A DNA stretch of 41,719 nt from Candidatus Schekmanbacteria bacterium (lineage in GTDB: Bacteria > CSSED10-310 > JACPHN01): contig JACPHN010000194.1 in NCBI GenBank assembly GCA_016188575.1, forward strand, positions 1 through 41,719. Direction: 5' to 3'. This document shows positions 21,356 to 37,724 of the stretch, piece by piece (within the stretch, counting starts at the first letter, position 1; every line of letters begins with the position of its first letter). The position numbers and the translations under genes were made by a program. The notes beneath the pieces are model-generated. The model searched no databases, was not told the origin of the DNA, and saw nothing but the letters and a program-made list of their open reading frames with translations.

Positions 21356-23288
21356 ATGCCGGACCGCGAACGCGGCCCTCTCCCGCGCGCCGTGTCAGCC
21401 CCATGGCGTCGAAGTGCTCGAGCAACGGAATCAGATATTTTCGCGACAGGTTCAGCTCTGACTTTAGCGGCGCCACGGGCAGCTCTTCGCTTGCCGAAAG
21501 CAGGCGGCGAATCGCCGTTTCCACTCGTGCCAGACAGTCGCGGTGAAAAACGAGCTTCGCCGAGAGTCGGACGAGCTCTCCCTGGGCGATGAGCAGCTCG
21601 AATAGTTGCTGCCGGGTTTCCGGAGGCACGGCGACGGCCAGCGACCCGAGCAGCGCCGAGGCGTCCGGCGGCGCCAACCCGGCGCTGCGGAACTGCTCGC
21701 GCACCGCGTCCAGCGCCTGGCGTTGCCGCTCGCTGAGCTCCACGGCAAAGTCCCCGCGCCGCATCATGTCGCCGTCCCGCACGATCTCGCCGGCCGCCGC
21801 CATGACCTCCAGAAGGTTGTCCAGAACCGCACCTGGCAGCTCCTGCGGGACTGCCTCCACCACCGAGCGGTGCGGCATTCCCGGCCGCAACGGGTAGCGG
21901 GCATGAAAGGCCTCCAGACGGTCCGCGATGGTGCGGCGCACCTTCGGCAAGCGGTCCGCGGCAAAGATCCAGGCGCTGCCCCTGGCATGTGCCACCGCGG
22001 CAATCTGCTCTGCCTGCAGGCGGGCAAGCGCGGCCTGGGTGTCGAGACCGAGAGCGCGGCACGATCGCGCGAAGACCGCTTCGGCGATCCCCGCGTAGCC
22101 TGCTCGCCCCAGGCAGTGCTCGAGGTATCGGGCTGGCCCGTCCGCGTGTGCCATGCCGGCGAGCAGCGCCAGCGTACGGCGCGCGGCGCCCCGGGTTCCA
22201 GGGCGGTGCTTTTGCGGCGCGGGATCGAGGACGACGCCACCGCCAAGGGTGCGAATCGGTGAGAAGGTGCGTGCGACGAACCGATCGCCGTGCACGGCCG
22301 CTACCGGAGACTCCAAGTGGAGCTGGGCGAGTGCCGATTCGCCCGGCTTGAGCGCGGGGCGATCAAGCAGAATTAGGCGGCCATAGATCTCTGCCGTGCC
22401 CAGGTGAAAACGCAGGCGCGCCCGCTGCTCGACGGGCCCCTTCGCCGCGGGCGCCAAACTGAGCGCAACGTCCAACAGGTACGAGGGCATGAGCGCCTCG
22501 CGCTCGGACAGCACGTGCCCGCGCTCCAGGTCCTCGGTCGTGAGCTCCGGGAGGTTCAGGGCGCACCGCTGCCCGGCATGAGCCACGTCGTGTCGCTGGC
22601 CGTGAACCTGGATTGCCCTCACGCGCGAGGTCTTGCCGGCAGGATAGCACGCGACTGCATCCCCTACAGACACGGACCCGGAAACGACCGTGCCGGTAGC
22701 CACAGTCCCGTGCCCGTGCATGGTAAACACGCGATCGATGGGCATGCGAAACAAGATCCCTGCCGCCTGCTTGGGAGGGCATGCGGCGGCGGCCTGGCCG
22801 AGCGCGCGGCGGAGCTCGTCGAGACCGGCGCCGGTGAGCGCGGACACGGCGACGATGGGCAGGCCCGCCAGTCGCGAAGGCGCCAGCAGGGCGCGCACGT
22901 CCTCCTTGACCAGTGAGATCCAGGCATCGTCGGCGAGATCGCACTTGGTCAGCACCACGACGCCGCCCTTGACCGCGAGATTCTCGCAGATCAACAGGTG
23001 CTCGCGAGTCTGTGGCATGACGCCCTCGTCGGCGGCGACAACGAGCAGCACGAGGTCGATGCCGCCGGTGCCGGCGAGCATGTTCGTGACGAAGCGCTCG
23101 TGGCCGGGGACATCGATCACCGCCAGGTGACCATCTGCGAGCGGCAGCGCGGCGAAACCGAGGTCAATCGTGATCCCGCGCTCCTTCTCTTCTTTCAAGC
23201 GATCCGTATCCACGCCGGTGAGCGCCTTGACGAGCGCCGTCTTGCCGTGGTCGACGTGTCCGGCTGTGCCGAGTATGAGATGTTTCAT
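21288..23288 (-). CDS. selB: Selenocysteine-specific elongation factor SelB
   Basis: A 666-residue translation factor delivering Sec-tRNA to UGA codons marked by a SECIS element. G1 [11 protein letters not shown] (7-17), the switch region [11 protein letters not shown]3 DVPGH (59-63) and G4 TKCD (114-117) define the EF-Tu-like part. Beta-barrel domains follow (about 170-380). The C-terminal half is a series of winged-helix domains that in SelB bind SECIS RNA. IDLGFA is typical of SelB rather than EF-Tu. The start ATG 23288 is followed by the canonical [17 protein letters not shown]. Its presence implies selenoprotein synthesis, although selA, selC and selD are not in the window. The 3' end overlaps mnmG tail to tail. 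Confidence 0.96.
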
Positions 23289-23347
23289 GAGCTCCTCACT
23301 GGCTGTCCCACCTGCGCCCGGGGAGACTTACCGCCAGCGGTGGCGTC

Positions 23348-23376
23348 TTGCAAGCGGGCGCTGCGAGTGTTAGGAT
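23348..23376 (+). promoter_or_regulatory. Candidate sigma70-like promoter for the envelope/transport gene block
   Basis: TTGCAA (23348-23353) and TAGGAT (23371-23376), each 4 of 6 to consensus with an ideal 17-bp spacer, lie in the divergent gap between selB and the lipoprotein gene. Position supports it; sequence match is only moderate. Confidence 0.35.
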
Positions 23377-23482
23377 TGCATCGGGCAGCCGGGACCGCAG
23401 ATGGGCCAAGCCCGGCGCGAAGCGCGTTTCACGGCGGAACGAGCGCCCGAGATCTGGTATTTTCTTCCGGTATGTGACGCTG

Positions 23483-24163
23483 ATGGCAAGAATGGTCTCC
23501 CGTACATGTCGCGCAATACTTCTGGCCGCGGCCCTGCTCGCCATGGGCTGGCCCGGCTGCGGCGGTCAGGCAAACCGACCCGACGCGCTGACGGGCAGCA
23601 TCGTCGGCAAGGGATCCGAAAACCCGGTGGCGGCGGCGACAGTGCATATCACGGCGGTGGATGGCAACACGACCATCGCTCAGACCATCACCGACGCCTC
23701 GGGACGCTTTCTCATCGTGGGGATGCGCGACGGAGTCTACAAGGCCTGGGCCAGCAAAGATGGGTATTTCGAGGAATCCCGCACGTTTTCGTTTCCTGAG
23801 GAGCGCCGCATGGAGTTCACCATGCAGATGCTCAATGAAGCGACCGGGACCGTGAAGCTTCCCGACGGGGCTGTCGGCGTCGATGTGGTCATCACCTTTC
23901 AGAATCTCACCTCCGGTGAGGTGCAGACCACGCGGTCCCTCGAAGATGGCAGCTATCGCCTCCGCGATCTGAAACCGGGCGACTACCGGGTCCGCGCCTC
24001 GACCGAGAAAGGCGACATGGAGTGGGCGCGCACAGTAACCATCTCCGGCGGCACGACGCAGCTCGAGGTGCTCCTGGATGACGCCATCAAGAGCACCGAA
24101 GGGGTGGAACATACCGGAGAGGTGTCGCCGCAGCACGGCGCGGACCCGCCGAAGCTGAACTGA
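23483..24163 (+). CDS. Probable lipoprotein with carboxypeptidase-regulatory-like beta domains
   Basis: About 226 residues from ATG 23483; ATG 23492 is equally possible. The N-terminus is basic, then hydrophobic (AILLAAALLAMGWPGCGG), with a cysteine placed for lipid attachment though the lipobox is imperfect. The mature part holds two Ig-like regulatory folds: LTGSIVGKGSENPVAAATVH with TITDASGRFLIVGMRDG and GYF, then TGTVKLPDGAVGVDVVITF with DGSYRLRDLKPGDYRVRA. These are surface or structural modules without catalytic residues. It is first in a run of nine same-strand genes, 28 bp ahead of the zinc-ribbon gene. Its role is unknown; the context suggests a periplasmic or envelope partner. Confidence 0.78.
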   Translation: MARMVSRTCRAILLAAALLAMGWPGCGGQANRPDALTGSIVGKGSENPVAAATVHITAVDGNTTIAQTITDASGRFLIVGMRDGVYKAWASKDGYFEESRTFSFPEERRMEFTMQMLNEATGTVKLPDGAVGVDVVITFQNLTSGEVQTTRSLEDGSYRLRDLKPGDYRVRASTEKGDMEWARTVTISGGTTQLEVLLDDAIKSTEGVEHTGEVSPQHGADPPKLN

Positions 24164-24191
24164 CCATCGCCCCACCGCCGGAGGTCCCTTC

Positions 24192-27100
24192 ATGATCTGC
24201 AGCCACTGCGGCGCCTCGAACTTGGATGATGCAGTCTTCTGCAAAGACTGCGGCGAGGTTTTCCTGGACAGCGACGCCTTCCCGAGCGCGCCGGCGAAGC
24301 GACCCACGGCGGCGTCGCGGGCGCCGTCGAAAAAAGAGCTTTTCGACCGCGGCCTGTCCAAATACGAACAAGGTCTGTATCGCGAAGCGATCGAGGAGTG
24401 GACGAAGGTACTCGCTCTGGATCCCGACAACGATACGGCAAAAACCCTGATCAATGAGGCCCGCATCCAGCTCGGCGATTCCGACCGCGACGCCGACGTC
24501 CCGGAAGGCTCCTTTGCGGATCGCGAATTCGAAGCCACGATGCAGGGGCCGCCACGCGAGTCGCCGCGCGAACCGCCGCGCCGGCAACGCCCCGAGAAGC
24601 CGGTCCCGCCGGAAAAGGTCGACAACGCGTCCATGGAGACCGCGCGCACGCTGATCCCGCCGGAGCTCCTGAAAAAAAGCACCAAGGGAATCTCGGGCGA
24701 AGCGACGATGGCTCTCGCACCGTCGGTACATCAGGCCGAAACGGTTCCCGAGCTCGGTTCGTCGACGTTCGTGGAGGACGAGCTCGAGCCCGATTTCGGA
24801 ATTCCCGAAGAGCTCGAGCCCAGCTTTCAGGAGGAGTCGCCGACACTGGGGGGGGCTGGATTCGTCGTCGGTGGGCAGCGAGACACCGAGCCGATCGCCG
24901 AACCCAAGCCACGCGACCGCCTGTCGTCGTCATTCTATGAATCCAAGACGCAGGTCTACGACGAAGAACCCTCGTCGGCGCTACTTCCGGGCGCCGATGA
25001 GGAGCTCGCAGCGCCCCGGCCGTTGATGCGCTCCGTGACGCTCCCGCCGCCGCGGCGCACCAGTGGCGGCAAGCTACTGCTCTTTGCCGTGTTCGGCGTG
25101 ACGCTCGTGGGCCTTGCCGCCGCCGCAACACTGCTCCTGCTCCGGCCGCCTTCGCTCGTTGCCGAGATCGATCGGGTGTTTCTCGAGCAAAAGGACGACG
25201 CACACACCAAGGCGCTGGAGCTCGTCCAGAGCCAGGCCGCCGCGGCGCTCGAATCTGATCCCGAGGAGGGACCCAAGGTGCTGGCGCGCCGTCAGTTCCT
25301 CCTGGGATTCAAGAAGGCCATGGAGAAGCGCGACGAGCACAGCTACGAGACGGCACGCACCAACCTGCGCGAGCTCCAGGGATTGGTGCCGCCGTTCGAG
25401 GAGCTGCTGCGCAAGAAAATCAACGACACGGCCGAGGACCAGGCGGCGTACGTAAGCAAGATTCTGGAGCGGGCGCAGGAACGCCTGAGCGACCCGGCCA
25501 GCTACAGTACCGCTGTCAATCAGTTCGAGTTCATACTCACCAACACCGAGATTGCCGAGGATCCGACGCCGATTCGCGAGCGTATCGACCAAATGCTCAC
25601 GGACGCGGTCACGCGTTTTCGCGACGCGGCGGTGTCCGAAGCGCAGGCCGGAAGCTACGACGCCGCGATCGCCAGCGCCGACAGTGGCGCGAAGCTCCTG
25701 GATTCCGCCAAGAAATACGTGACGCGGGCCGAGGCGCTCGAGACCGAGCTGGCCGAGCTCAAGAAAAATCTCCAGGCCGACCGCAAGATCATCGCTCTTG
25801 CCGAGTCGAAGGCGGATGCACCGGAGGCGGCGCGCACCCGGGCGGCCCAGCAACTCGACGAGATCCATTACCCGGGTGCACAGGTTGCGCGGCTGCGGGA
25901 AAAACTCACTGCCAAGGCGACAAGCCCCGCGCCGGCGGCATTCATGCCGACGCTCAGCGTGACGGCGACCCGCGGTGGCGGCGGTGCGCTCGCGGAGGTC
26001 GAGCTGTATGTCGACGGCCGCCTCTCCGGCCGGACACGCACAAACGGCAAGACGACAGAGCAGGTCAAGGGGTACAAACCCGGCGATCGCGTATCCGTAC
26101 GGTTTCACCACGCCCACTACGACATCGCTCCCACGTTCGCCGAGGTCACGCTCGAGGAGGGCAAGACCAGCTACGACCTCGCGGTTGTCGGCACTCCGAT
26201 TCTTGGCGAGCTGGCGCTGAAAATACGCCACGGAGTGACCGGCGAGCCGATTGGCGAGGTCGCCGTGCAGCCGCGCGGCGAGCCCGCCGTGATGTCCGGC
26301 GGGGACGGCGTCGCCAAGGTTCGCCTGCCGCGTGGGCAAGCCTACGAAATCAAGGTTTCGCGCGACAAGTTCCAGACCGTCGTCAGCACGGGGACGTTCC
26401 GAGAAAGCGACAAGGAGATCGTCGTGGACCTGCTTCCCTTCGCGGAGGACGTCGCCGCGCTCATCTCCGTGGTGCCACCCACGGCCGTGCCGACGGAGGT
26501 GCCGCCAACCGTTCCTCCGACGATGCCTCCCGCGCCGACCGCAACTGCGGTAGTGATCGCGCCCACGGCGCCGCCCGCCGAGACGGCTGCGAAAGCGCCC
26601 TCTAGCGAGCCGACCATGGGCAAGGTGCAGACGTTTCCGGCGATCGTCGGCGTCGAAACGGAGCCAACCGGCGTGCCTTCGCTCGCTCCCACCGCGCAGC
26701 CCACCCTCGAGCCGACACTCGCGCCGACACTCGCGCCGACACTCGCGCCGACGCGGGAGCCCACCCGGGCTCCCGAGCCGACTTCGCCGGCGGCGACCGC
26801 TCCAGCAACGCCGCCGCCGTCGGCCGTGCCGGCTGAGACCCCGCGCGACGTCGCGAGCCTCGTCCCGCCGGCAGCAGGTAACATCGCCAGTGACGACTAT
26901 TTCGGGAAAGCGGATTACTTCTTGCGTCTCGCCAAGGAAAAGAAAGATCCGACCTACTACGAGTACGCGATATCGAGCCTGAAGAAAGTCCGCTCCTCGC
27001 AAGATGACCGCAACAACTACGTGCGCGCACAATTCCAGGTCGGCAGAATCTACGCGCATGATCTTGAGCAGTACGATAACGCGCTGGCCGCCTTTGAAAA

Positions 27101-27491
27101 CATGTTGCAGGTAGATGCACGCCAGAGCGTTGGCTTTTTCGAGCGCGGCCTCGTTCACTTTCACCTGGGCAACTTCGAGGAGGCGCTGCGAGACCTGGAA
27201 AACGCCTTCCGACTGCTGTCCATCTCGCCACCACCGAATCCGCTGGACCGTAAACGCGTGGTCGTGGACGGGTACTATTTCCGCGCACAGGCACAGGAGG
27301 CAATATATAATCGAAATACAGAAGATATAAATACGCTCAAGAAATCCATAAAGAACTGGCAGGATTTTCAGGACAAATGTGATCGCTTCACCGAGGTCTG
27401 CGACCAAAGCTACTTCGGGCAATCCAAGAAGCACCTGGTCCGGCTCAGTAATCAGCTCACCATGATGCTTCTCAGCGGAGGTGGTCAGTGA
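24192..27491 (+). CDS. Large zinc-ribbon, TPR and PEGA-like membrane protein
   Basis: 1099 residues from ATG 24192 (GGAGG upstream). Order: zinc ribbon with C3, C6, C17 and C20; one or two TPR-like helices (48-85; YEQGLYREAIEEWTKVLALDP); a long charged, disordered stretch (95-290); one transmembrane helix (294-317); a helical, coiled-coil-like region (about 320-575). Two carboxypeptidase-regulatory/PEGA-like beta domains follow (about 585-755; VELYVDGRLSGRT and GYKPGD), then a Pro/Thr-rich linker with tandem repeats (about 757-890), and a C-terminal TPR array (about 900-1090; QYDNALAAFENMLQVD). The zinc ribbon would face the cytoplasm and the rest the periplasm. This architecture suggests a scaffold connecting the two sides. 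The specific function is unknown. The DNA near 27290-27440 is unusually AT-rich. Confidence 0.85.
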   Translation: MICSHCGASNLDDAVFCKDCGEVFLDSDAFPSAPAKRPTAASRAPSKKELFDRGLSKYEQGLYREAIEEWTKVLALDPDNDTAKTLINEARIQLGDSDRDADVPEGSFADREFEATMQGPPRESPREPPRRQRPEKPVPPEKVDNASMETARTLIPPELLKKSTKGISGEATMALAPSVHQAETVPELGSSTFVEDELEPDFGIPEELEPSFQEESPTLGGAGFVVGGQRDTEPIAEPKPRDRLSSSFYESKTQVYDEEPSSALLPGADEELAAPRPLMRSVTLPPPRRTSGGKLLLFAVFGVTLVGLAAAATLLLLRPPSLVAEIDRVFLEQKDDAHTKALELVQSQAAAALESDPEEGPKVLARRQFLLGFKKAMEKRDEHSYETARTNLRELQGLVPPFEELLRKKINDTAEDQAAYVSKILERAQERLSDPASYSTAVNQFEFILTNTEIAEDPTPIRERIDQMLTDAVTRFRDAAVSEAQAGSYDAAIASADSGAKLLDSAKKYVTRAEALETELAELKKNLQADRKIIALAESKADAPEAARTRAAQQLDEIHYPGAQVARLREKLTAKATSPAPAAFMPTLSVTATRGGGGALAEVELYVDGRLSGRTRTNGKTTEQVKGYKPGDRVSVRFHHAHYDIAPTFAEVTLEEGKTSYDLAVVGTPILGELALKIRHGVTGEPIGEVAVQPRGEPAVMSGGDGVAKVRLPRGQAYEIKVSRDKFQTVVSTGTFRESDKEIVVDLLPFAEDVAALISVVPPTAVPTEVPPTVPPTMPPAPTATAVVIAPTAPPAETAAKAPSSEPTMGKVQTFPAIVGVETEPTGVPSLAPTAQPTLEPTLAPTLAPTLAPTREPTRAPEPTSPAATAPATPPPSAVPAETPRDVASLVPPAAGNIASDDYFGKADYFLRLAKEKKDPTYYEYAISSLKKVRSSQDDRNNYVRAQFQVGRIYAHDLEQYDNALAAFENMLQVDARQSVGFFERGLVHFHLGNFEEALRDLENAFRLLSISPPPNPLDRKRVVVDGYYFRAQAQEAIYNRNTEDINTLKKSIKNWQDFQDKCDRFTEVCDQSYFGQSKKHLVRLSNQLTMMLLSGGGQ
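26711..26746 (+). repeat. 12-bp tandem repeat inside a Pro/Thr linker
   Basis: Three perfect tandem copies of GCCGACACTCGC, followed by a partial fourth, encode a PTLA repeat in the extracytoplasmic linker of the zinc-ribbon protein. The copy number could vary by slippage and change linker length. Confidence 0.85.
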
Positions 27492-28798
27492 CGTTGGCCG
27501 TCCGTAACGCAAACTTCGGGCGGGTCCTTTCCGGAATCGCTCGCATCGCAATCCTTGGCACCGTTTTGGCCGGCGTCGCCGGCGCCGGCGCGGCCGCGCC
27601 TAAGCTGAGCAATGCCAAGGCGGTGTTTGCCGCCGAGCAGGTGCCTATCGGCCAGCAGCTCATCGCCCCAGCTCCGGCCCCCGACGGAAAGACACTCGCA
27701 TACGAAGCGCTGAAGGGAAACAGTCGGTTCCTCTTTCTCTACGACGGCGAATCCGGTTCGGTGCAACAGGTCAAGGCCCGTAAGTCCCTTCTCACTCAGG
27801 CATCCGCTTACGAAGGGGAGCTAGACTGGTGCCTGGCTACGGCCTGCGCCGGAAGCTTCGTGTTCGTCAGCGGCTCGCAGAACAACCTCGACATCTACGC
27901 CGGAAAGGTCGGCGCCACCGAAGCTCCCACGCCACTGACGGCGCACAAGTCCCTGGACTTTCAGCCGCGTTTTGATCCGGCCGCCAACCGCGTGGCCTTT
28001 TTGTCCGGCCGCGACCGCAAATCCGGCTCCGACCTCTACTTGCTCGACCTGGACAAATTGGCCAGCGGCGTCGCGCTCATGCGCCTGACGAATCTGCCCA
28101 ACGGCGTCCTTTATCCGGAGTGGTCGCCGGATGGCCGCTACATCGTCTTCAGCGCCGAGGGCCTGAGCGCCGAAGGCGGCAACACGCCCAGCTTCGACCT
28201 GTGGCTGATGGATTTGCGGCGGCTCCCGGAGACCCTGCCCGCGGCAGCACGGTCTGAAGGAAACGGCGGGGAGCCTGTCATCGACCTCTCCGCGGACCTG
28301 CAGCCAGCTCGCGTCACCAGCGTCGACGCTTCAGACGAGCTGGCGGCGAGCTTCGCTCCCGATGGCACCGCTCTCGCCTTCTACGTCAGCGATGCTGCTG
28401 ACGCGACGGGAACCGCGGGCCGTAAAGGGCAGAAGGAGCAGCGTTTGGCGCTCGTCGAGCTGAAACGCGGCGACGGCAGCGACGCCGCGCCCGCGCTCGG
28501 CGAAATCCGCACACTTGTCGATCACGTTGCGGATCCCAACGAGGACTCCACGCTCCGAGGGCCAGTGTGGCTCGCGGACGGGAGCGCCCTGTTGGTCGTT
28601 CGCGACGATCCGGAGACCTTCAACCCCATCGTCCTCGTCGACAGAAGCTCCGGCGAGATCGTTTCCAGCTTGGCCGAGACCCACGTGAACAAGGATCTGG
28701 CGCTGGCGCGTCATTCACCGAGTGCGGGAATTCGCCTGTTCTTCAGCGCTCATGAAGGGCAGAGCACCGGATTGTACGAGGTACGGATCCAGCCGTGA
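27488..28798 (+). CDS. TolB-like periplasmic beta-propeller protein
   Basis: 436 residues from GTG 27488, overlapping the previous stop by 4 bp (GTGA). The N-terminus is a signal peptide (VLSGIARIAILGTVLAGVAGAGAAA). The rest shows TolB/PD40-type propeller blades: IAPAPAPDGKTLAYEA, FQPRFDPAANRVAFLSGRD with DLYLLDLD, LYPEWSPDGRYIVFSAEG with FDLWLMDL, and a later RGPVWLADGSALLVVRDD. Such propellers bind proteins or peptides in the periplasm. It lacks the TolB N-terminal domain and any Tol/Pal neighbours, so it is not TolB proper. A structural partner role in the neighbouring assembly is the likely reading. Confidence 0.82.
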   Translation: MTLAVRNANFGRVLSGIARIAILGTVLAGVAGAGAAAPKLSNAKAVFAAEQVPIGQQLIAPAPAPDGKTLAYEALKGNSRFLFLYDGESGSVQQVKARKSLLTQASAYEGELDWCLATACAGSFVFVSGSQNNLDIYAGKVGATEAPTPLTAHKSLDFQPRFDPAANRVAFLSGRDRKSGSDLYLLDLDKLASGVALMRLTNLPNGVLYPEWSPDGRYIVFSAEGLSAEGGNTPSFDLWLMDLRRLPETLPAAARSEGNGGEPVIDLSADLQPARVTSVDASDELAASFAPDGTALAFYVSDAADATGTAGRKGQKEQRLALVELKRGDGSDAAPALGEIRTLVDHVADPNEDSTLRGPVWLADGSALLVVRDDPETFNPIVLVDRSSGEIVSSLAETHVNKDLALARHSPSAGIRLFFSAHEGQSTGLYEVRIQP

Positions 28799-30309
28799 TT
28801 CCTGCAAATTGGAAAAACGCGTTCGGCAGCGTCGCTGTCGCCGGGCTCATCTTCAGTGCGCCGTTTCAGGTCTTCTACGAAACGCAAAACGAGCGGATCA
28901 CAGAAGGCTATGAGGCGCTGTATTTCAATCGCTTTGCCGATGCGGTCACGCGCTTCTCGCGAAAAGACGGTCTGGCGGACCTCGTCGGCCTCGCCACCGC
29001 CTATCAGGAACGAGGAAAGTTCGCTGAGGTCGTTTTCGCGGACACCGTCGAGGTCGGCTGCCGCTACTTCGAGGATGTCGTGTTTCCGGCGGATTTGGAG
29101 AAGATCGAGGCGAGTCGGAGCGTGCCGGCCGCGGCGTTTCTGTACCGGGCGGAGTTTCTGGCGCTGTGCGGCAAGGCCGATCAGGCTGCGCAACAGTTGC
29201 AGACATTCGTGGAACGCCTCGCGGCTTCACCGGATGCGCGGCCGCTGCTGCCGGCAGCCCGGAGCTGGCAGTGGGCGCTCGCGAGCTCCCAAGCTGGGCG
29301 GAGCACGCCGCTGCCGGCGGAGGCTTCGCAGACCGAGGCACGGCTGGCGCAGTGGGCGATCGCCCAACGCCTGTCGCCGACCTCGGCACCACCAGCCATC
29401 GGCACCAGCGCCGATCCCAAGTTGTCAGCCGAAAGAAACCAGCGAAACCTCGTATTCGCTCTGGCCGCGGAACAGAAGCCTGCCGAGGCGCTCAAGCAAC
29501 TGGCCGCGCTGGACATGCGAGCTCCCGAGCTGGAGATGAAAGTGGGCCGTTTTGGCCTCGTGCGCCTCTACGACCCGTTGATCCCGCTCGCTGCCGCGCG
29601 CGCGTACCTGGCGATGAGCGCCTCATTCTTCTCCGAGGCGCTCGCCGCCAGCAGCGCGGGCGACGCCGAGGCCGCGCTACTCGCCGATGATTTGCGGGCG
29701 AGCGCCGGCTACGCATTGCTCTTGACTGGGGACGCCAAGGCCGCACGCAGGGTGCTCGAAGCCGGGCGCAGCGAGATTGCGGCCGTGTATCGCGGCCTGG
29801 CACAGGTGGCCGACGGGCAGGCCGCGCTGGCTCGCAGCCAGCTCACCGTCGTCGCGCAGTCTGCCTCCCCCGCCGTCGTGCTCCATCTCGGGCGCGCCTA
29901 CTGGCAGCTCGGCGACCGGCAGCAGGCGCTTGCGGCAACCGAGAAGTCGTGGCGGATGCTCGCTGCCGTGGAAAGCACCCAACCCGAGCTCTACGAAAAA
30001 TACACGCAACGCAACGCCCATCAGCTCGTCCGCATGACGCTGGCGATGAATGATCCTCAGGCTGCGCGCAAGGCACACCAGCGAGGAAAGAAGAGCCAGC
30101 AGCTCGACTCGCCCGAGCACAACCTGCCCGAGTTCCTTCTTGACCAGGCGCTTCTCGCTTCCCGCTCCGGAGCGCGGGAGTTTCCCACCGCGATGGGCAT
30201 CTACAGCAGCCTCGAAAGCCTCTTTTCGGAGTGCCATCCGCTCGCGGACATGTTTCAGGGCATCTATGCCGCGGCGGCCTCTCAAGGCGGAGAGATGCCC
30301 AAGCTATGA
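28795..30309 (+). CDS. TPR-like helical repeat protein
   Basis: 504 residues from GTG 28795, again overlapping the previous stop by 4 bp. A short hydrophobic N-terminal segment (FGSVAVAGLIFSAPF) may be a signal or anchor. The body consists of degenerate TPR-like helix pairs (EGYEALYFNRFADAVTRFS, AEFLALCGKADQAAQQLQTF, HLGRAYWQLGDRQQALAATE). No catalytic motif is visible. The tight double GTGA coupling across three genes suggests their products are made in fixed proportion, as for subunits of one complex. A 54-bp gap separates it from the peptide-binding protein gene. Confidence 0.78.
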   Translation: MIPANWKNAFGSVAVAGLIFSAPFQVFYETQNERITEGYEALYFNRFADAVTRFSRKDGLADLVGLATAYQERGKFAEVVFADTVEVGCRYFEDVVFPADLEKIEASRSVPAAAFLYRAEFLALCGKADQAAQQLQTFVERLAASPDARPLLPAARSWQWALASSQAGRSTPLPAEASQTEARLAQWAIAQRLSPTSAPPAIGTSADPKLSAERNQRNLVFALAAEQKPAEALKQLAALDMRAPELEMKVGRFGLVRLYDPLIPLAAARAYLAMSASFFSEALAASSAGDAEAALLADDLRASAGYALLLTGDAKAARRVLEAGRSEIAAVYRGLAQVADGQAALARSQLTVVAQSASPAVVLHLGRAYWQLGDRQQALAATEKSWRMLAAVESTQPELYEKYTQRNAHQLVRMTLAMNDPQAARKAHQRGKKSQQLDSPEHNLPEFLLDQALLASRSGAREFPTAMGIYSSLESLFSECHPLADMFQGIYAAAASQGGEMPKL

Positions 30310-30363
30310 GAACCCGCGCCCGCTGTGCCCCCGGTGGCGAGAACATCTGACGGAGTTCGCACC

Positions 30364-32160
30364 ATGAAACGCTACAGAATCCTGCCTGCCGTCCTCATCG
30401 CCGGGTTCGTCCTTGCCGCGGCTGCCGCCGCCGATGCCCAAATGCAGCGAGATAAGGGCGGGACGATGCGCTACAGCTCCACGAAGCAAATCAAGGCCCT
30501 CGACCCCATAACCTCTACCTCGCTTGCCACTCTGCGCATGACCAGTCTGATCTACGAGTCGCTCGTCGAGCGGGATGAGTTTGGCACCGGCCTCAAGCCC
30601 TTGCTGGCGGACAAGTTCGAATCCGCCCCGCGGCTGATCACGTTCTTTCTCAAACATGACATAAAATGGCACGACGGAGCGCCGTTTACCGCGGAGGACG
30701 TGGCTTTTACCTTCAAGGTCCTGCGCAACCCCAAGACGGAAACAGCGCTGCGCGACGAGTTCAAGTTCGTAGGGGACGTCAGCGTCAAGGACGCGCACAC
30801 CATCACGTTCACCTTTCTTGACCCCGTGTACAAGCCGGAGTACCGGTTCATGGCGCTGAAAATCCTGCCGCGCCACACCTTTGAGGTGCTCGATCCGGAG
30901 TACACGCCGACGGCCAAGGGCGAGGCGCAGCTCCGCTTTCCCGATGTGCCCCTGCTTTCGGCACCGCGTGCGGACTCCCGCACGACCCGCGAGCTTCCCA
31001 ACAAGGCCATCATCTCTATTCTGGAGAGCCGCGGAGACTATGTGCGGGCCAAGGTGCTCAGGGCAGGGCCGGTGGGCGCGGAAGGTTGGATTGAGAAGTT
31101 CAAGGACCACATCGCCCGCGACGAAGGCAGCTTCATCCTGCATCCCATCGGCACGGGGCCCTACAAGTTCGAGAGCATCGGCACGCGCGGAATCAATCTG
31201 CGGCTCAACGAGGAATACCATGGAGACAAGGCGTACATCGAGTTCGTTCGCCGAACGCGTGCGCAGGACAAGAACACCATGGTGAACTATCTGTTAAACG
31301 AGTTCTTGAATCTTCTGCCCGATACACCACTTGAGGATATCGCGAGGATAGAGAAATCCGGTGTTGCCAAAACAACGCAATACTCATCCCTGAAATTCGC
31401 CGGTTTTGTGTATAATACGCAGAAGAAAGGCCTGGGTAAACGTGAAATGCGCCGGGCGATGACACTGGCACTCAATCGCTCCCAACTCCTGGAAACGTTC
31501 TATCAGGGGAAGGGCGACATCGTTGCCGGCCCATTTGCGCCGGATTCCTGGGGTGTGTCGCTCAGTCTGAAGCCGCTAGGATTTGATCTCGATGCCGCCA
31601 ACAAGCTGCTCGACGAGGCGATCGGGCTGCCGAGGGAGGATGGTTCGCGGCGTATCGAAGGACAACCCGCGGCGTATCGGCTAATCATCTCGAACGAGCA
31701 GAACCCCGCCGATTACAACATGTGCCACGCTTACAAGGACGCCATGGCAAAGGTCGGGATTCAGGTAGAAGTAGACACCGTAGAAAAAGGAAAGTACATA
31801 GACGATCTACGAGCAGGCGATTTCGACATTGCGTACCTCGAGTGGAACTTTGGGATTAGCTATAATATCAAGCCGATTTTCCATCCCGAAGGGTTGAACA
31901 ACTATGGGCGCTACGTCAACCCCGAGGTCGGAAGGCTCTTCGACGAGATGGATCGTCAGAATGATGGTGAGGCGCGCCGCGAGCTATCGTACAAGATTCA
32001 GGAGATAATCGCCGAGGATGCGCCGTACACGTTCCTGTGGACGCTCAAGAATGTCGCATCATCGAGCATTCACATCCGCGATATTGGCCCGGAGACAATC
32101 GATCCGTACGAGTTCTTTACCTGGATTGAGCGCTGGTACATTCCCCGCGATGTGCAGTAA
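30364..32160 (+). CDS. Peptide ABC transporter substrate-binding protein (family 5) with inserted SH3-like domain
   Basis: 598 residues from ATG 30364, with a signal peptide ending ADA. Family 5 (OppA/DppA) features: GGTMRYSSTKQIKALDPITS, the LIYESLVERDE segment, IKWHDGAPFTAEDVAFTFKVL, the GTGPYKFE segment, and a C-terminal lobe. Between the first-lobe segments, residues about 199-250 read like a bacterial SH3 module (RELPNKAIISILESRGDYVR, then GAEGWIEKF), which is not part of the usual fold. SH3b domains often contact peptidoglycan. The binding protein may thus be held at, or take peptides from, the cell wall. Two islands in the gene (about 31270-31480 and 31690-32060) have much lower GC than their surroundings. 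Confidence 0.9.
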   Translation: MKRYRILPAVLIAGFVLAAAAAADAQMQRDKGGTMRYSSTKQIKALDPITSTSLATLRMTSLIYESLVERDEFGTGLKPLLADKFESAPRLITFFLKHDIKWHDGAPFTAEDVAFTFKVLRNPKTETALRDEFKFVGDVSVKDAHTITFTFLDPVYKPEYRFMALKILPRHTFEVLDPEYTPTAKGEAQLRFPDVPLLSAPRADSRTTRELPNKAIISILESRGDYVRAKVLRAGPVGAEGWIEKFKDHIARDEGSFILHPIGTGPYKFESIGTRGINLRLNEEYHGDKAYIEFVRRTRAQDKNTMVNYLLNEFLNLLPDTPLEDIARIEKSGVAKTTQYSSLKFAGFVYNTQKKGLGKREMRRAMTLALNRSQLLETFYQGKGDIVAGPFAPDSWGVSLSLKPLGFDLDAANKLLDEAIGLPREDGSRRIEGQPAAYRLIISNEQNPADYNMCHAYKDAMAKVGIQVEVDTVEKGKYIDDLRAGDFDIAYLEWNFGISYNIKPIFHPEGLNNYGRYVNPEVGRLFDEMDRQNDGEARRELSYKIQEIIAEDAPYTFLWTLKNVASSSIHIRDIGPETIDPYEFFTWIERWYIPRDVQ

Positions 32161-32171
32161 GGCCACCGGCT

Positions 32172-33119
32172 ATGGCGGGGATGGTGCGCGTGATCCTGCG
32201 GCTCGCCGGGGAAAACTTGGCGGTGTTCTTTCTGGCGACGTTTCTGATCTTCTGGATCATCAATCAGGCGCCGGGAGATCCGATCGATATCTGGCATCCT
32301 GAACCGGGGATGTCGGCGGCAGACCGCCAGGCGATCGCCCAGGAGCTGGGCCTTCAGCGGCCGCTGGTCGAGCGCTATGCGAGGCTGTTGTGGCGCACCG
32401 TGCGGCTCGACCTCGGGGCATTTGACGGCGTGCCCATCAGCGAGCGGCTGCTGCACGGCATCGGCGTGACGCTCTTGCTCGCGCTGAGCGCCAGTGCGGT
32501 CAGCGTCGCGGTCGGCGTTCCGCTTGGCGTGCTCGGTGGGCTGGAACGCGGCGGCCCGCCGATCCGTGTCGCCACCATGATCGTGTATGTGGCGAGCTTG
32601 CTGCCGGTGTTCTTGCTGTGCTACCTCGTGCACCTCTTCTTCTTGAACACCGTTGGTGTGCTGCCCACGCCCCAGTCGGTAGAGAATCGCGCAACCATCT
32701 GGAAAGTCCTGACCGCGCTGTCGATGGCTAGCGTCCTTGGAATCGGGGACGGCACGGCCACCGAGATACTGCGCTATGTGCGCAGCGAGGTGCGGCGGAT
32801 CTCAAACAGTCAGTTTATCCGCGCCGCCCGGGTGAACGGTGGTAGTGTGACGCGCCACCTCGCCCGCAACACGCTCGTTCCGATCGCAACGATCATCAAC
32901 CTTCGCATGCTGTACTTCCTCGGGGGCGCGGTCGTCGTCGAGGCGATTTTCCAGTTGGATGGGCTCGGTTGGCTCACGTGGCAGTCGATCGACAGTCGCA
33001 ACTACGAGCTACTGTTTGCCGTGTCGGTTGTCAGCGTCATCGCCGTTTGCGCGGTCAATCTCCTAAATAACGTTACGATCGGGCTGATCGATCCGCGTGT
33101 TCGCGCCCGATCGGGGTGA
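32172..33119 (+). CDS. Peptide ABC transporter permease, OppB/DppB-type
   Basis: A 315-residue inner-membrane protein: an N-terminal helix (FFLATFLIFWIINQ) followed by APGDPIDIW, then further helices including LLLALSASAVSVAVGVPLGV and YVASLLPVFLLCYLVHLFFL. The permease EAA loop FIRAARVNGGSVTRHLARN contacts the ATPases. APGDP after the first helix is diagnostic of OppB-type permeases. It starts 11 bp after the binding protein. Confidence 0.93.
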   Translation: MAGMVRVILRLAGENLAVFFLATFLIFWIINQAPGDPIDIWHPEPGMSAADRQAIAQELGLQRPLVERYARLLWRTVRLDLGAFDGVPISERLLHGIGVTLLLALSASAVSVAVGVPLGVLGGLERGGPPIRVATMIVYVASLLPVFLLCYLVHLFFLNTVGVLPTPQSVENRATIWKVLTALSMASVLGIGDGTATEILRYVRSEVRRISNSQFIRAARVNGGSVTRHLARNTLVPIATIINLRMLYFLGGAVVVEAIFQLDGLGWLTWQSIDSRNYELLFAVSVVSVIAVCAVNLLNNVTIGLIDPRVRARSG

Positions 33120-33129
33120 GCAACGAAGC

Positions 33130-34086
33130 GTGTGGACCACATACGAAACGGACCGGCGCGGTCCCAAGGCGTGGGCCCTGCTGAGCAGCATGGGGCGAGG
33201 CGACGGCCAGATGGCGGGGGTGCTCAGCCTGATTGGCGGCGCTGTGATCATCGCGTCCTTCGCGTTGGCCTGGCTGATCGCGACCCTGGGGCTCGCGGGA
33301 CTGTCGGATCGCACCAATCTCGAGCAGGTATACGAGCCCCCTGCGCTCACGCCGCTGAAGTGGCTACTCGATCAGCGAGACGTGCGCGCGAGCACGCTGT
33401 TCGGAGCACCGCCGCAGGCGGAGGGTTTCCATGTTCTGGGCACGGATGGCGCCGGGAGGGATATCCTCAGCCTGCTGGTCCTGGGCACGCGAACCTACCT
33501 GGTGCCGGGGCTGCTCGCCGTATCCATTGCGCTTGGGCTCGGCATCTTGCTTGGAACGATTCATGGCCATTATGGCGGGTATGCCGCAAAAGCCGTCTCG
33601 TGGTTCGTGAAGACGGTGCATTCGGTACCGAAGCTCCTGCTGCTGTTGGTGATCGGTGCGGTGACGGATTTCGACGTGAAATGGCTGATGTTCGGCTTGG
33701 GCTTCGCGGGTGCACCACGCGTCACCGAAATGGTGGCGGCGCGCATTGCGTCACTTCGCCGCGCCGATTTCATCGAAGCCGCGCGCGAGGCCGGGCTGCG
33801 CGAATGGGTGATCGTGGCCAAGCACGTGCTGTGGTACAACTGCCGCCACCTGCTCGTCATCCAGGCGTCCTTTTTCATGGCCGAGGCGATTCTCATGGAG
33901 ACGACGCTCAGTTACCTGAACTCGGGAGCCCAAGGTCTGAGCTGGGGCCGCATGGTTCAACACGGAAGTAACGACCTCTTTCAGGGAATATACTGGACCA
34001 GTGCTGCCCCGGCCGCTGCCGTGGTCACCACGATTCTGGGATTCTACCTGCTTGGCGATGGCCTCAACCGAATCCAGCAAAGCTAG
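33130..34086 (+). CDS. Peptide ABC transporter permease, OppC/DppC-type
   Basis: About 318 residues from GTG 33130, 10 bp after the oppB-like stop; a GTG at 33097 would overlap that gene by 23 bp. Membrane helices include SLIGGAVIIASFALAWLIAT and VPGLLAVSIALGLGILLGTI. The segment HVLGTDGAGRDILSLLVLGT is the OppC/DppC hallmark. FIEAAREAGLREWVIVAKHV is the EAA loop. It forms the transmembrane channel with the OppB-like partner. The next gene begins inside its 3' end. Confidence 0.92.
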   Translation: MWTTYETDRRGPKAWALLSSMGRGDGQMAGVLSLIGGAVIIASFALAWLIATLGLAGLSDRTNLEQVYEPPALTPLKWLLDQRDVRASTLFGAPPQAEGFHVLGTDGAGRDILSLLVLGTRTYLVPGLLAVSIALGLGILLGTIHGHYGGYAAKAVSWFVKTVHSVPKLLLLLVIGAVTDFDVKWLMFGLGFAGAPRVTEMVAARIASLRRADFIEAAREAGLREWVIVAKHVLWYNCRHLLVIQASFFMAEAILMETTLSYLNSGAQGLSWGRMVQHGSNDLFQGIYWTSAAPAAAVVTTILGFYLLGDGLNRIQQS

Positions 34087-35161
34087 CAAGGTTCCCGCAT
34101 TGCTTCGCGTCGAAGGGCTCCGCGCGTACTTTTCGCTGCGGCAAGGCATGCTGCGCGCGGTGGAGGACGTGAGCTTCGAGGTCCCCGTCGGGCGGATCGT
34201 CGGCCTCGTAGGTGAATCGGGCAGTGGGAAAACCGTGACTGCATACAGCACTGCGGGTCTGGAGATCGGGCGGCCCGGTATTATTGGCGGACACGTCTTC
34301 CTGGGCGATCGCGATCTGTTTTCCGGGCTGGAGCAGAGCTGCAGGATCGACGCCGCAGCGGGATCCGGAAAGACGCGGGTGCGCAAGAACAGCGGCAAGT
34401 GGTCCCGCCAACTGGCGGCAAATTACCGAGGGGTGCGTGGTTCACGAATTTCGATGATTTTCCAGGAGCCGCAGTCGTCGCTGGACCCTTTGTTCTCGAT
34501 AGAGCGACAGATCACCGAGCCTCTGTTGCGGCACGGGCAGTGCAGGAGTCGCCGCGAAGCGCGAGGCGAAGCGCTCGAATGGCTTCGCACCGTCGCCATC
34601 CACGCGCCCGAGCGCGTCCTCTCGTCGTACCCACACGAGCTCTCCGGCGGCATGTGCCAGCGCGTCATGCTGGCCATCGCCATGGCGTCGCGGCCGCAGC
34701 TTTTGATCGCGGACGAACCCACCACGGCGCTCGACGCCACCATTCAGGTACAGATCTTGAGCCTGTTGCGCCAGCTCAACCGCCAGCGGAGCGTGTCCGT
34801 GCTGCTAATCACCCACGACATCCAGATCGTGTACCACTACACCGACCTGGTGGTGGTGATGTATGCGGGATACGTCATGGAGCGGAATAGCACCGCGTGG
34901 CTGCTTGACCCGCGGCTGGAGGACAAGCACCCGTATACGCGCGCGCTCCTGGCGTCCGTGCCGTACGAGCAGGGGGCGATCAAGGTGCGGCGGCTGACCG
35001 CGGTGCAGGGCGAGTCGCCGAATCCCTTCGATGTTCCGCAGGGGTGCCCGTTCCATCCGCGCTGCCAGATGGTGGTGGGCGAGCAATGCCGGCGCGAGCT
35101 CCCGCCGCTGCTGGAGATTGCTCCCGGGCATCACGTGCGCTGCTGGCGGTGGTCGGAATGA
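34058..35161 (+). CDS. Peptide ABC transporter ATP-binding protein, OppD/DppD-type
   Basis: 367 residues from ATG 34058, overlapping the permease by 29 bp. Walker A GESGSGKT (52-59), Q-loop IFQEPQSSLDP (134-144), signature LSGGM (195-199), Walker B LLIADEP (215-221) and an H-loop in ITHD are intact. The C-terminal oligopeptide-transporter domain includes GCPFHPRC, which fits the Cys motif that can carry an Fe-S cluster in this family. A basic insertion (about 95-128) separates the switch region from the Q-loop. It powers import together with the OppF-like partner. Confidence 0.93.
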   Translation: MASTESSKASKVPALLRVEGLRAYFSLRQGMLRAVEDVSFEVPVGRIVGLVGESGSGKTVTAYSTAGLEIGRPGIIGGHVFLGDRDLFSGLEQSCRIDAAAGSGKTRVRKNSGKWSRQLAANYRGVRGSRISMIFQEPQSSLDPLFSIERQITEPLLRHGQCRSRREARGEALEWLRTVAIHAPERVLSSYPHELSGGMCQRVMLAIAMASRPQLLIADEPTTALDATIQVQILSLLRQLNRQRSVSVLLITHDIQIVYHYTDLVVVMYAGYVMERNSTAWLLDPRLEDKHPYTRALLASVPYEQGAIKVRRLTAVQGESPNPFDVPQGCPFHPRCQMVVGEQCRRELPPLLEIAPGHHVRCWRWSE

Positions 35162-36297
35162 ACGAGCTGATCCGGGCGGTGGACATTCACAAGGTTTATC
35201 GCAAGCGCCGCGGGCTACTGGACTTCATTCGCGCCGATGGGGGCGGGCGCGAGGACGGCTCGGGGGCCGTCACCGGGGGTGCGGCGGCGGCGGGCCCGCC
35301 GCTCACCGTGGAGCGCGACGCGGCTGGTCGCGACGGATTTCGGGTCGCTGCGGTCGACGGCGTGACGCTGGCCATCTCCGAGGGGGAGACGCTGGGTTTG
35401 GTGGGAGAGTCGGGCTGCGGGAAAACGACGCTCGCCCGCACCCTCTTGATGTTGACGCGCCCGAGCGCCGGCCATGTCTTCTTCGCCGGTCATGATCTCA
35501 CCTTGCTTCCCCGCGGTGAGCTCCGCAAGCTGCGCCGACAGATGCGACTCATCTTCCAAAACGCCGACGCGGCCCTGAATCCTGGAATGCGCGTCGGCGA
35601 CATCTTGACCGAGATCCTGGCCAACAATACGGCATTGCCGAGGCGCCTGAGGAGCGCCAAGGCCGGCGAGCTGCTCGAGCAGGTGAATCTCTCGGCGGAT
35701 TTCTTGACGCGGCGCCCGGACCAGCTCAGCGGCGGGCAAAAGCGGCGGGTCACGATTGCGAGGGCACTGGCGGGGAATCCCAGGCTGATCGTCGGTGACG
35801 AGCCGGTTTCCGGCCTCGACGTGTCAATCCAGGCGCAGATCATCAACTTGCTCAGAGATCTTCAGGCGGAGCATCGGCTCGGTTTCCTGTTCATCAGTCA
35901 TGACATCGCCATGGTGAAATATATCAGCCATCGGATCGCGATCATGTATGCAGGAAAGATCGTCGAGGTCGGGCCAAACCAGGTGGTGACGGCGGACGGT
36001 GGCATGCACCACCCGTATGCGCTGATGCTATTCTCGTGCGTGCTGTTTACGCGCATGGCGGAGAGCAGCGCGGCGGCCGCCGACTGGGAGATTCCGCAGC
36101 TCGCGGCGATTCCGCGATCCGGCTGTCGGTTCCGCCCGCGGTGCGAGCGCTACCGCGGGCTCGGTCAGCCCACGCGCTGTGCGGAGGCGGAGCCGGAGCT
36201 GCTCTCGGCAGGGCCCGGGCACTTCATAGCGTGTCACTATCCGGAGGCGGCGACGCCGGTCGCGCCGGGGGCTGTAGCTGGATTCCCGCAAGCCTGA
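35158..36297 (+). CDS. Peptide ABC transporter ATP-binding protein, OppF/DppF-type
   Basis: 379 residues from ATG 35158 (ATGA overlap with the preceding gene). Walker A GESGCGKT (83-90), Q-loop LIFQNADAALNPGM, signature LSGGQ (190-194), Walker B LIVGDEP (210-216) and ISHD are present. A C-terminal Cys motif GCRFRPRCERY is retained. Residues 26-60 form a Gly/Ala-rich insertion near the N-terminus that is longer than usual. The last 74 bp overlap the end of the argG-like gene on the other strand. This completes an OppABCDF importer set. Confidence 0.93.
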   Translation: MNELIRAVDIHKVYRKRRGLLDFIRADGGGREDGSGAVTGGAAAAGPPLTVERDAAGRDGFRVAAVDGVTLAISEGETLGLVGESGCGKTTLARTLLMLTRPSAGHVFFAGHDLTLLPRGELRKLRRQMRLIFQNADAALNPGMRVGDILTEILANNTALPRRLRSAKAGELLEQVNLSADFLTRRPDQLSGGQKRRVTIARALAGNPRLIVGDEPVSGLDVSIQAQIINLLRDLQAEHRLGFLFISHDIAMVKYISHRIAIMYAGKIVEVGPNQVVTADGGMHHPYALMLFSCVLFTRMAESSAAAADWEIPQLAAIPRSGCRFRPRCERYRGLGQPTRCAEAEPELLSAGPGHFIACHYPEAATPVAPGAVAGFPQA

Positions 36298-37552
36298 GAA
36301 TGCGCTTGAGAACGCTGCTGTCGAGCGAGGAGGAGGGGCCGACATCATCGGCTTGGCTTCCCGCGCTCGGTGCCAGGGCGGCAAACGCCCGCGTCGACAG
36401 GCCCAGGCTCTCTGCCAGCCCTTCGACCGCACGGCTCTCCAGGTCGAGCACCGCGGCGCGACGCCCCTGCAGCACCACGGGAGGCACGAGCGCCTGCTCG
36501 GAGCGCCGCCCAACAACTCTGGCAACGCCGTCAGCGAGGCGAACTCTGATGTCCCCGGTAACGGGATTCTGGGTTTCCGCCAAGAACGCCTCAAGAGCGT
36601 TGAGCAGCGGCGAAAAATAGTGCCCCGAATACACGAGCCGCGCGTATTCTTGCTCCACGGATCGCTTGAAGAAGAGCAAATCCTGAGGGCAGGTGAGGTT
36701 TTCGATCTCGCGATGAGCGAGGATGAGCACCCGCGCGCCCGGCGCTTCGTATAGGGCCCGCCGCTTGAAGCCGAGGATCCGGTTTTCCACGATGTCGGCG
36801 CGGCCGATGCCGCGGCGTCCCGCCTCCCGGTTGAGCAGCCGGAGGATCGCGGCCAGCGAGCACGGGCGACCGTCCAACGCCGTCGGTACGCCGCGATCGA
36901 AGCCGATTTGCAGCACGAGCGGCGCCGCCGACGGGTCACGGACGGACCAGCGAAAACCGTCCTCGGGGGCGTCGAGCCACGGATCCAGCGACGAGTAGGT
37001 CAGGCAGCGCCCCCAAATGTTCTCATCGACCTGGTAGTCGCGTTCGATCTGCGAGAATACTCCGATACCGCGTGTCCGAGCCTCTTCGAGCAGGGCCTCG
37101 CGCGGTAGGCTGACGCCGCGAAGCGGGGTGAGGATTTCGATTTCGGGTTCGAGGGCCCGTGCATAGCTGTTGAAACGGACAAAATCGTTGCGGTGTCCGG
37201 CCGCGCCATGAGCGATCGCGCCACAGCCATGCTCGCGATAGAAGTCGACCAGCTTCTCGACGATCAGCGGTCGCGACAGTGCGGCGGACAGATGGTAGCC
37301 GCCGTCATACTCGGGATGCGCCGGCAACGCCTTGGCGAGGATCTGGTTGGCGAGCTCGTCACTGGCGTGCAGCGAATACGAGGCCGCGGCGCCAAGGCGA
37401 AGGCCTTCCTTGCGGATGCGTTCGGCGTTTTCCTCGTTGTCAGCACCGAGCATGTCGACGTGGACACAGACGACCTCATGCCCCTGCTCGCGCAAGGCGT
37501 GCAAGCTCACTGCCGTGCTCAGTCCGCCGCCATTACCCAGTACGACTCGCAT
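36224..37552 (-). CDS. Argininosuccinate synthase-like protein with degenerate PP-loop
   Basis: 442 residues from ATG 37552 (AGGAAG upstream). Similarity to ArgG runs throughout: LSAALSRPLIVEKLVDF, HGAAGHRNDFVRF (115-127), YQVDENIWGRC, GVPTALDG, GIGRADIVENRILGFKRR and YSGHYFSPLLNALEAFLAETQ. The ATP-pyrophosphatase loop, normally AYSGGLDTS in ArgG, reads GNGGGLSTA (6-14): the first Ser is Gly, the Asp is Ser and the last Ser is Ala. In HGATGKGND the Thr and Lys are also changed; Asn, Asp and Arg remain. Normal ATP activation of citrulline is doubtful. I infer a paralogue with a changed or lost activity, not the main arginine enzyme. The C-terminus is about 40 residues longer than usual and overlaps the OppF-like gene antisense. 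No other arginine genes are near. Confidence 0.85.
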   Translation of the reverse strand: MRVVLGNGGGLSTAVSLHALREQGHEVVCVHVDMLGADNEENAERIRKEGLRLGAAASYSLHASDELANQILAKALPAHPEYDGGYHLSAALSRPLIVEKLVDFYREHGCGAIAHGAAGHRNDFVRFNSYARALEPEIEILTPLRGVSLPREALLEEARTRGIGVFSQIERDYQVDENIWGRCLTYSSLDPWLDAPEDGFRWSVRDPSAAPLVLQIGFDRGVPTALDGRPCSLAAILRLLNREAGRRGIGRADIVENRILGFKRRALYEAPGARVLILAHREIENLTCPQDLLFFKRSVEQEYARLVYSGHYFSPLLNALEAFLAETQNPVTGDIRVRLADGVARVVGRRSEQALVPPVVLQGRRAAVLDLESRAVEGLAESLGLSTRAFAALAPSAGSQADDVGPSSSLDSSVLKRILRLAGIQLQPPARPASPPPDSDTL

Positions 37553-37590
37553 CGCGCTTCCTGACTCCCGACTCGCCAGCGGCGCCATGA

Positions 37591-37628
37591 TAAAGGGGGA
37601 AGGAACCGATTGCAAGGCCCCTTCCCCC
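37591..37628 (-). terminator. Probable terminator downstream of the phasin gene
   Basis: Read on the minus strand, GGGGGAAGG (37628-37620) pairs perfectly with CCTTCCCCC (37603-37595), a 9-bp stem, followed by TTTA. It lies between the phasin stop and the argG-like start. The T-run is short, so termination may be partial and could act as attenuation of read-through into the argG-like gene. Confidence 0.55.
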
Positions 37629-37666
37629 ATTGTAGCGGTCCCGGCCGCCGGCCGCCGCTCGACCGT

Positions 37667-37684: not shown

Positions 37685-37724
37685 GCCTGGGACCGCGCCA
37701 CGGCAAGCTCCTGGCGACCTTGCT

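Follow-up and report, generated by a model that had tools for sequence, protein, structure and literature searches.

The usual picture of a peptide ABC importer is a machine of five subunits that has no envelope proteins dedicated to it. In the stretch of DNA analysed here (the window, 41,719 nucleotides, making up all of contig C38 in G000, a genome of 9.2 Mb in 275 contigs), the genes for four envelope proteins, P1 to P4, lead directly into a complete set of importer genes, raising the question of whether the nine genes form one system or are a run of neighbours by chance. A previous reading of the window, made from the sequence alone, had proposed a dedicated assembly, and we followed up this proposal in the phylum of G000, which is small and was sampled by 8 species/genomes, and in other phyla. 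Judging by its recurrence, whole or in part, in several unrelated bacterial groups, the nine-gene set has the look of an import-and-sensing system not described before, more than of genes adjoining by chance.

Organization of the nine-gene block

The nine ORFs of the block (Table 1) lie on the same strand, with normal GC3 values (0.73–0.81), and are separated, in order, by 28, -4, -4, 54, 11, 10, -29 and -4 bp, exactly as the sequence-only reading had given them. The block is bounded on one side by selB, which is divergent from it, and on the other by a convergent argininosuccinate-synthase-like gene. No match to the sigma-70 consensus was found in the intergenic region next to selB. The gap between P4 and the gene for the solute-binding protein (SBP), positions 30310–30363, had been singled out as the place where a promoter or terminator of its own would separate the envelope genes from the importer; neither a sigma-70-type promoter nor a terminator-like site was seen there.

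Table 1. Features of the nine-gene block and its flanks, with positions in the window
Feature	Position	Strand	Evidence or remark
selB	21288..23288	-	
selB-to-block divergent intergenic region	23289..23482	.	Probable promoter region, from position alone
Block, gene order P1, P2, P3, P4, SBP, OppB, OppC, OppD, OppF	23483..36297	+	
P1, secreted, probable lipoprotein, two carboxypeptidase-regulatory-like (beta-sandwich) domains, 226 aa	23483..24163	+	Pfam CarboxypepD_reg 5e-24
P2, N-terminal zinc ribbon and TPR, one transmembrane helix, extracytoplasmic part, 1099 aa	24192..27491	+	
P2 zinc ribbon, residues 3-21, predicted cytoplasmic side	24198..24254	+	Pfam Zn_Ribbon_1
P2 transmembrane helix, residues 299-317	25086..25142	+	Hydropathy 2.37 over 19 residues
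P3, secreted TolB-like beta-propeller, 436 aa	27488..28798	+	PD40 6e-14; TolB profile 59 bits
P4, secreted or anchored, all-helical, TPR-like, 504 aa	28795..30309	+	Sub-threshold TPR match
Family-5 solute-binding protein (SBP), 598 aa, Sec signal	30364..32160	+	SBP_bac_5 1.8e-57; signal from hydropathy
SH3_3 (bacterial SH3) insert in SBP	30952..31092	+	Directly before GTGPY motif
OppB-type permease	32172..33119	+	BPD_transp_1 1.5e-18
OppC-type permease	33130..34086	+	BPD_transp_1 1.2e-7
OppD-type ATPase	34058..35161	+	ABC_tran, oligo_HPY; Walker A, signature, Walker B intact
OppF-type ATPase	35158..36297	+	ABC_tran, oligo_HPY; Walker A, signature, Walker B intact
Argininosuccinate-synthase-like gene	36224..37768	-	

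The importer and its binding protein

The complete OppABCDF set recognized in the sequence-only reading was borne out, with one SBP_bac_5 protein, two BPD_transp_1 permeases, both above the cut-off, and two ABC_tran ATPases, although the oligo_HPY match of OppF (26.4 bits) falls just short of its cut-off of 27.1. Because both ATPases retain the Walker A, signature and Walker B motifs, as read off the translations, the importer looks functional. By its subunits, it is an Opp-type (family-5 SBP) ABC importer, with peptide as the presumed substrate. No protein of the block reached a listed cut-off of the named Opp, Dpp, Nik, Gsi and Sap equivalogs of NCBIfam.

The best PDB match of the SBP was AppA (1xoc), and its nearest solved structures are of the AppA and DppA types. 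It carries an insert of about 65 residues, absent from the sequence-only reading, that is present in five homologues. Pfam places SH3_3 in this insert in G002 at C17 (3e-11), C517 (5e-6) and C389 (3e-4), while the window insert (0.009) and that of the copy at C217 (0.019) are both sub-threshold; in bits, two homologues pass the cut-off of 27 (43.7 and 27.1) and the window copy alone reaches 16.7. An AlphaFold2 model of the SBP, made with 24 insert-free relatives, is confident except in the insert, where it is undefined, leaving the fold of the insert unconfirmed. Outside the phylum of the window, the insert was not found: a scan with a five-SBP alignment gave 80 loci of relatives from other groups, all free of it (0/80), and a scan of GTDB contigs with the single SBP sequence gave no match. 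Domains of the SH3b type often bind peptidoglycan, so in this lineage the insert may serve to anchor the SBP on the cell wall or favour muropeptide ligands.

The envelope proteins

P1 to P4 have, by sequence, binding-type folds, and are predicted to be secreted, lipidated or membrane-anchored both in the block and in their counterparts. P1 is probably a lipoprotein; its own lipobox is atypical (WPGC), but its counterparts have better ones. Homologues of P1 occupy the same slot in G000:C217 (z 15.0) and G002:C389 (z 13.6). P2 had been described as a zinc-ribbon/TPR/PEGA membrane protein. Its TPRs stand, and its zinc ribbon is borderline (Zn_Ribbon_1, 24.6 bits vs a cut-off of 25), with a match that is also weak in the copy at C217, but PEGA has no Pfam match in the window P2 and was found by Pfam in the counterparts of G250, G151 and G594. 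Beyond the membrane helix, P2 continues with a Pro/Thr-rich linker, extracytoplasmic repeats and a C-terminal TPR.

The TolB-like propeller assigned to P3 was supported by its PD40 repeats and TolB profile match, and its homologues in G002:C517 (702 bits) and G000:C217 (556 bits) stand far above the next match in the phylum (51 bits). The TPR label given to P4 is less secure, as the match is sub-threshold, and an AlphaFold2 model of P4 alone is all-helical and of low confidence, too poor for use. Among 98 relatives, no convincing homologue of the window P4 was found.

Related loci in the same phylum

Close homologues of P2, P3 and the block SBP are confined to two of the eight genomes of the phylum. 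Besides the window, G002:C517 carries P2-P3-SBP-B-C-D-F, beginning at the contig edge, whereas the importer is not adjacent in G002:C389 (P1-P2-P4 slot-SBP) or in G000:C217 (P1-P2-P3-P4 slot-SBP). The SBP stands alone in G002:C17, and C550 holds a P2-like C-terminus alone. Across the eight genomes, homologues of the P2 C-terminal part were found only in G000:C217, G002:C389, C517 and C550, the next match scoring 38 bits. Homologues of P2 adjoin a block-type SBP at four of five loci, and those of P3 at three of three. The proteins in the P4 slots of C389 and C217 look helical, but alignment did not establish their homology to P4.

The sequence-only reading had held that finding the first four genes regularly without the importer would speak against it. 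This is half the case: of the four sets of this phylum, two have the importer next to them, and all four keep the SBP. Given the non-adjacent importer in G002:C389 and G000:C217, the firm core, as read from these loci, is the envelope genes plus the SBP, with an importer that is sometimes unlinked.

An importer set without an SBP, OppF-B-C-D, was detected in G000:C250. Its OppC, although long-branched, groups with the OppCs of C38 and C517 with 100/100 support against 20 other permeases of the phylum. In G000, therefore, both the P1-P4-SBP set and the importer of the subfamily are present twice, and one copy of each is unlinked. Most economically, the C250 importer would serve the C217 set although the two are unlinked, and the G002 SBPs that have no importer beside them would all use that of C517. 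A model for such unlinked SBPs is found in Pseudomonas aeruginosa, where DppA1–A5 all serve the one importer DppBCDF (PMC4206461). The presence of two P1-P4-SBP units in G000 suggests partners that must match.

Related loci in other phyla

A profile search of 290 genomes recovered the SBP in three, and the one relative from outside the phylum was that of G250. In this complete genome from another phylum, the genes follow the order of the window, P1-P2-P3-P4-SBP-B-C-D-F; P1 is a lipoprotein and P2 a lipoprotein with PEGA and TPR. A P3 profile run over 386 relatives of G250 detected P3-type propellers in seven genomes, among which G002 (the C517 set) is counted, and each of the seven adjoins P2-/P4-type genes, a block-type SBP or the importer. 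Both searches thus point to a low prevalence in the genomes sampled.

Most of the relatives are incomplete assemblies. In the family of G250, G589 has P2-P3-P4 and G594 has P2-P3-P4-SBP-B, each up to the end of a contig, with P3 split into two ORFs in G594. A rearranged form, P1-P2-P4-SBP-B-SBP-C-D-F-TPR/PEGA-P3, occurs in L067 (Myxococcota) and similarly in G270 and G134. The set of G151 reads P2-P3-large Ig protein-P4-start of SBP, and its P2 consists of a Ser/Thr kinase (residues 7–279), a transmembrane helix (521–539), PEGA and a C-terminal TPR. This kinase-headed P2, seen once, makes the 'non-catalytic' scaffold of the sequence-only reading doubtful as a general description. L059 (Rhodothermota) has Ig protein-P4-SBP-B-C-D-F, and an SBP search in the phylum around it gave one further strong SBP (G402) and otherwise none. 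The set of L135, with SBP, permeases and a propeller, has diverged further, and alignment did not establish P4 homology for the protein in its P4 slot. The window P1–P4 sequences, used as queries on 80 SBP loci, found no partners; L067 and L135 were brought out only by later queries with G250.

The homology links across phyla differ in strength. With profiles built from the phylum of the window only and E-values set for 5000 proteins, P3 was detected in G589, G594, G250, G151 and G270 at 4e-33 to 3e-22, in L067 at 2e-14 (51.5 bits) and in L135 at 1e-7 (29 bits); as a generic TolB-like protein scores 51 bits, the last two are indistinguishable from generic propellers by score. The SBP profile finds all the sets, but a control SBP outscores the block SBPs of Myxococcota, and the claim for the SBP consequently rests on its tree rather than on its score. 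Homology of P4 across phyla appears weak to moderate: the window P4 aligns to those of G250, G594, L059 and L067 with z of about 8–12 (controls, -0.6 to 1.6), and a P4 profile from the G250 family reaches G151 at 6e-8 and L059 at 4e-5, against 0.008 for a control TPR protein. For P2, cross-phylum homology is weak, and its counterparts were proposed from their architecture and position; the profile made from the TPR at its C-terminus was dropped as evidence, since control TPR proteins outscore these counterparts. The correspondence of P1 rests on domain type and position.

Co-inheritance of importer and envelope genes

In a tree of OppC, the nine block-linked proteins fall on one side of a branch with 100/99 support, opposite 28 other permeases that come partly from these genomes, as paralogues, and partly from other phyla. 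This split was present in 100% of the bootstrap trees, and linkage to the block requires one change on the tree, compared with a mean of 8.3 after shuffling (0 of 500 shuffles were as low). The 13 block-linked SBPs likewise form one group (100/99) against 33 other family members. The outgroups are the nearest available matches, so that an unsampled family could still interleave with these groups, and the L135, L059 and C250 sequences are long-branched, with exact places that are unsure. Since both trees give a single group, the importer and the envelope genes are, on this phylogenetic evidence, inherited together. Recurrence and trees combined indicate that the nine-gene arrangement is more than chance. 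The dedicated assembly proposed from the sequence alone thus holds up, with the same order in G250, partial or rearranged forms elsewhere, and an importer and SBP of one subfamily.

Comparison with known systems

The importer itself is of a known kind. Like the Opp, Dpp and Nik importers, the block has all five subunit types, intact ATPase motifs and an SBP fold nearest to AppA and DppA; it differs in failing the equivalog cut-offs, in the separate group formed by its permease and SBP, in the SH3b insert and in the four linked envelope genes. P3, as a secreted PD40 beta-propeller, resembles TolB of the Tol-Pal system, but its score of 59 bits is far below the equivalog cut-off (343), and Pal, TolA, TolQ and TolR are absent among the nine block genes and the other window proteins scanned; membership in Tol-Pal was rejected on these grounds.

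Two systems offer analogies for sensing through an SBP. In GlnH-GlnX-PknG, an SBP is coupled via a membrane protein to a Ser/Thr kinase (PMC6069109, PMC9769921, PMC8546545), which makes it a functional analogue, with no homology claimed, of the reporter role that we propose for P2; there, however, the SBP is another one and the kinase is a separate protein, while a kinase is fused to P2 only in G151. In Vibrio, the chitin-oligosaccharide SBP serves both uptake and control of the membrane sensor ChiS (PMC10667598, PMC10208484). The likeness is again one of analogy, within the same SBP fold family (1zty is among the matches of the block SBP), and the block has no counterpart of ChiS. We know of no propeller or TPR partners of the Vibrio proteins, nor of envelope partner genes of the P1–P4 kind described for the P. 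aeruginosa DppBCDF importer.

In the open-access literature we found no description of the block subfamily, of the four linked envelope genes or of an SH3b-bearing SBP, in agreement with the sequence-only reading, to which no described system so composed was known. That the block represents a distinct import-and-sensing system is nevertheless a minority prospect in our estimate.

Proposed function

We favour P2 as a transmembrane reporter of the state of the SBP, in view of the Ser/Thr kinase that its G151 counterpart has in place of the zinc ribbon and TPR. The family-5 SBP would capture a peptide or peptide-like ligand and dock on OppBC, with OppDF powering uptake. P1, P3, P4 and the outer part of P2 may together build a complex in the periplasm or at the outer membrane in which the SBP is held; P2, spanning the inner membrane, would most likely report ligand or transport state to the cytoplasm. 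Its N-terminal domain appears exchangeable, being zinc ribbon plus TPR in the window and a Ser/Thr kinase in G151; receptors typically vary their cytoplasmic heads in this way while the outer part stays similar. Transmembrane signalling by P2 cannot, however, be general, given that in G250, G594 and L067 P2 appears to be lipidated and not membrane-spanning. Overall, we put the chances at about even that the block encodes a subfamily of Opp-type ABC importers equipped with an envelope complex of its own, in which P2 reports state to the cytoplasm. A bolder version, to which we would give roughly a third of the weight, is that of a trans-envelope import-and-sensing machine apart from every known peptide transporter, in which a conserved complex of propeller and helical-repeat proteins reads the SBP of a distinct importer subfamily, the ligand or transport state is passed via P2 to exchangeable cytoplasmic output domains, and the unit is inherited across several phyla.

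The lipoprotein form of P2 in those three sets fits an uptake scaffold without signalling, in which P1–P4 would catch large or scarce peptides, or guide them across the envelope, for delivery to the SBP, and the N-terminal domains of P2 would be anchors or regulators of P2 itself. The most constant part of the sets, the importer subunits and SBP of one subfamily, and the protein-binding repeats of the accessory domains agree with such a scaffold, but it leaves unexplained both the Ser/Thr kinase of G151 and the cytoplasmic zinc ribbon and TPR of the window P2, and we regard it as unlikely, if worth keeping in view. Less probable still is that the envelope proteins and SBP are a sensor or wall-associated structure with no part in transport, and the importer an occasional neighbour. 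The sets without an adjacent importer in G002:C389 and G000:C217, the lone SBP of G002:C17 and the frequent affinity of SH3b-type domains for peptidoglycan would suit this; against it, the permease of each lineage tested falls in the block-specific group, an orphan importer that matches is present in G000, and both window ATPases keep their motifs. An ordinary Opp operon lying by chance downstream of unrelated envelope genes is very improbable and was rejected, for although TPR and TolB-like proteins are common, and Geobacter-type genomes also have TPR lipoproteins ahead of an SBP-DppBC set, the order recurs in several lineages, the trees are single-group, and P3-type propellers occur in just 7 of the 386 genomes, all beside block-type genes.

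That this subfamily and four envelope proteins have been inherited together in several phyla points to a larger assembly into which some importers are built. The block also supplies gene partners for proteins annotated only as TPR, PEGA or TolB-like, and the kinase-headed P2 of one lineage makes control of a Ser/Thr kinase by an SBP, via a dedicated membrane protein, directly testable.

Loci outside the window

The helical-repeat protein P4 is preceded by an Ig-type repeat protein in genome G151, where the TolB-like propeller P3 lies on its other side, and also in the Rhodothermota record L059; this protein may be a lineage-specific additional component. In Geobacter-type genomes, the stop of a long TPR lipoprotein gene overlaps the start of a Dpp-type binding protein (SBP) gene by 4 bp, and two permeases follow. 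This pairing is a recurring arrangement, distinct from the nine-gene block.

In the window's own genome (G000), contig C250 carries an orphan OppF-B-C-D set lacking a binding protein, upstream of which, with other genes intervening, are a Ser/Thr kinase-like and an FHA-like gene. In G002, of the same phylum, a lone SH3b-type SBP is followed on the same strand by comEA-like and comEC-like genes. The OppC encoded on contig C194 of G002 is identical to that of contig JAJRTK010000270.1 (L101; bacterium isolate Dive96_bin1.51).

Coordinates of features in the window and in related loci
Feature	Locus	Position	Strand	Score
Big_1/Invasin_D3 repeat protein, 2613 residues, between P3 and P4	L195 (G151:C194)	8960-16801		
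TPR lipoprotein-SBP pairing, Geobacter-type	L060	8124-10004		
TPR lipoprotein-SBP pairing, Geobacter-type	L062	8169-9875		
TPR lipoprotein-SBP pairing, Geobacter-type	L072	7370-9091		
Orphan OppF-B-C-D set	L159 (G000:C250)	511-3037 and 6979-11438		
Lone SH3b-type SBP, then comEA-/comEC-like genes	L055 (G002:C17)	8938-13639	minus	
Cyclic-nucleotide-binding domain, then Ser/Thr kinase domain, one protein	window	8900-10429	minus	
Consecutive rnpA, YidC-like gene, jag, MnmE-like gene, mnmG	window	14801-21355		
selB	window	21288-23288	minus	
Argininosuccinate-synthase-like protein	window	36224-37768	minus	306 bits, above TIGR00032 cut-off

Other genes of the window

The window carries selB. Its 41,719 nt yielded no tRNA genes, whatever their type. 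Gene orders of the rnpA/yidC/jag/mnmE/mnmG type are frequent close to the replication origin. The N-terminal loop customary in argininosuccinate synthase is SGGLDTS, in place of which the translated argininosuccinate-synthase-like protein reads GGGLSTA; the activity of this protein may be changed.
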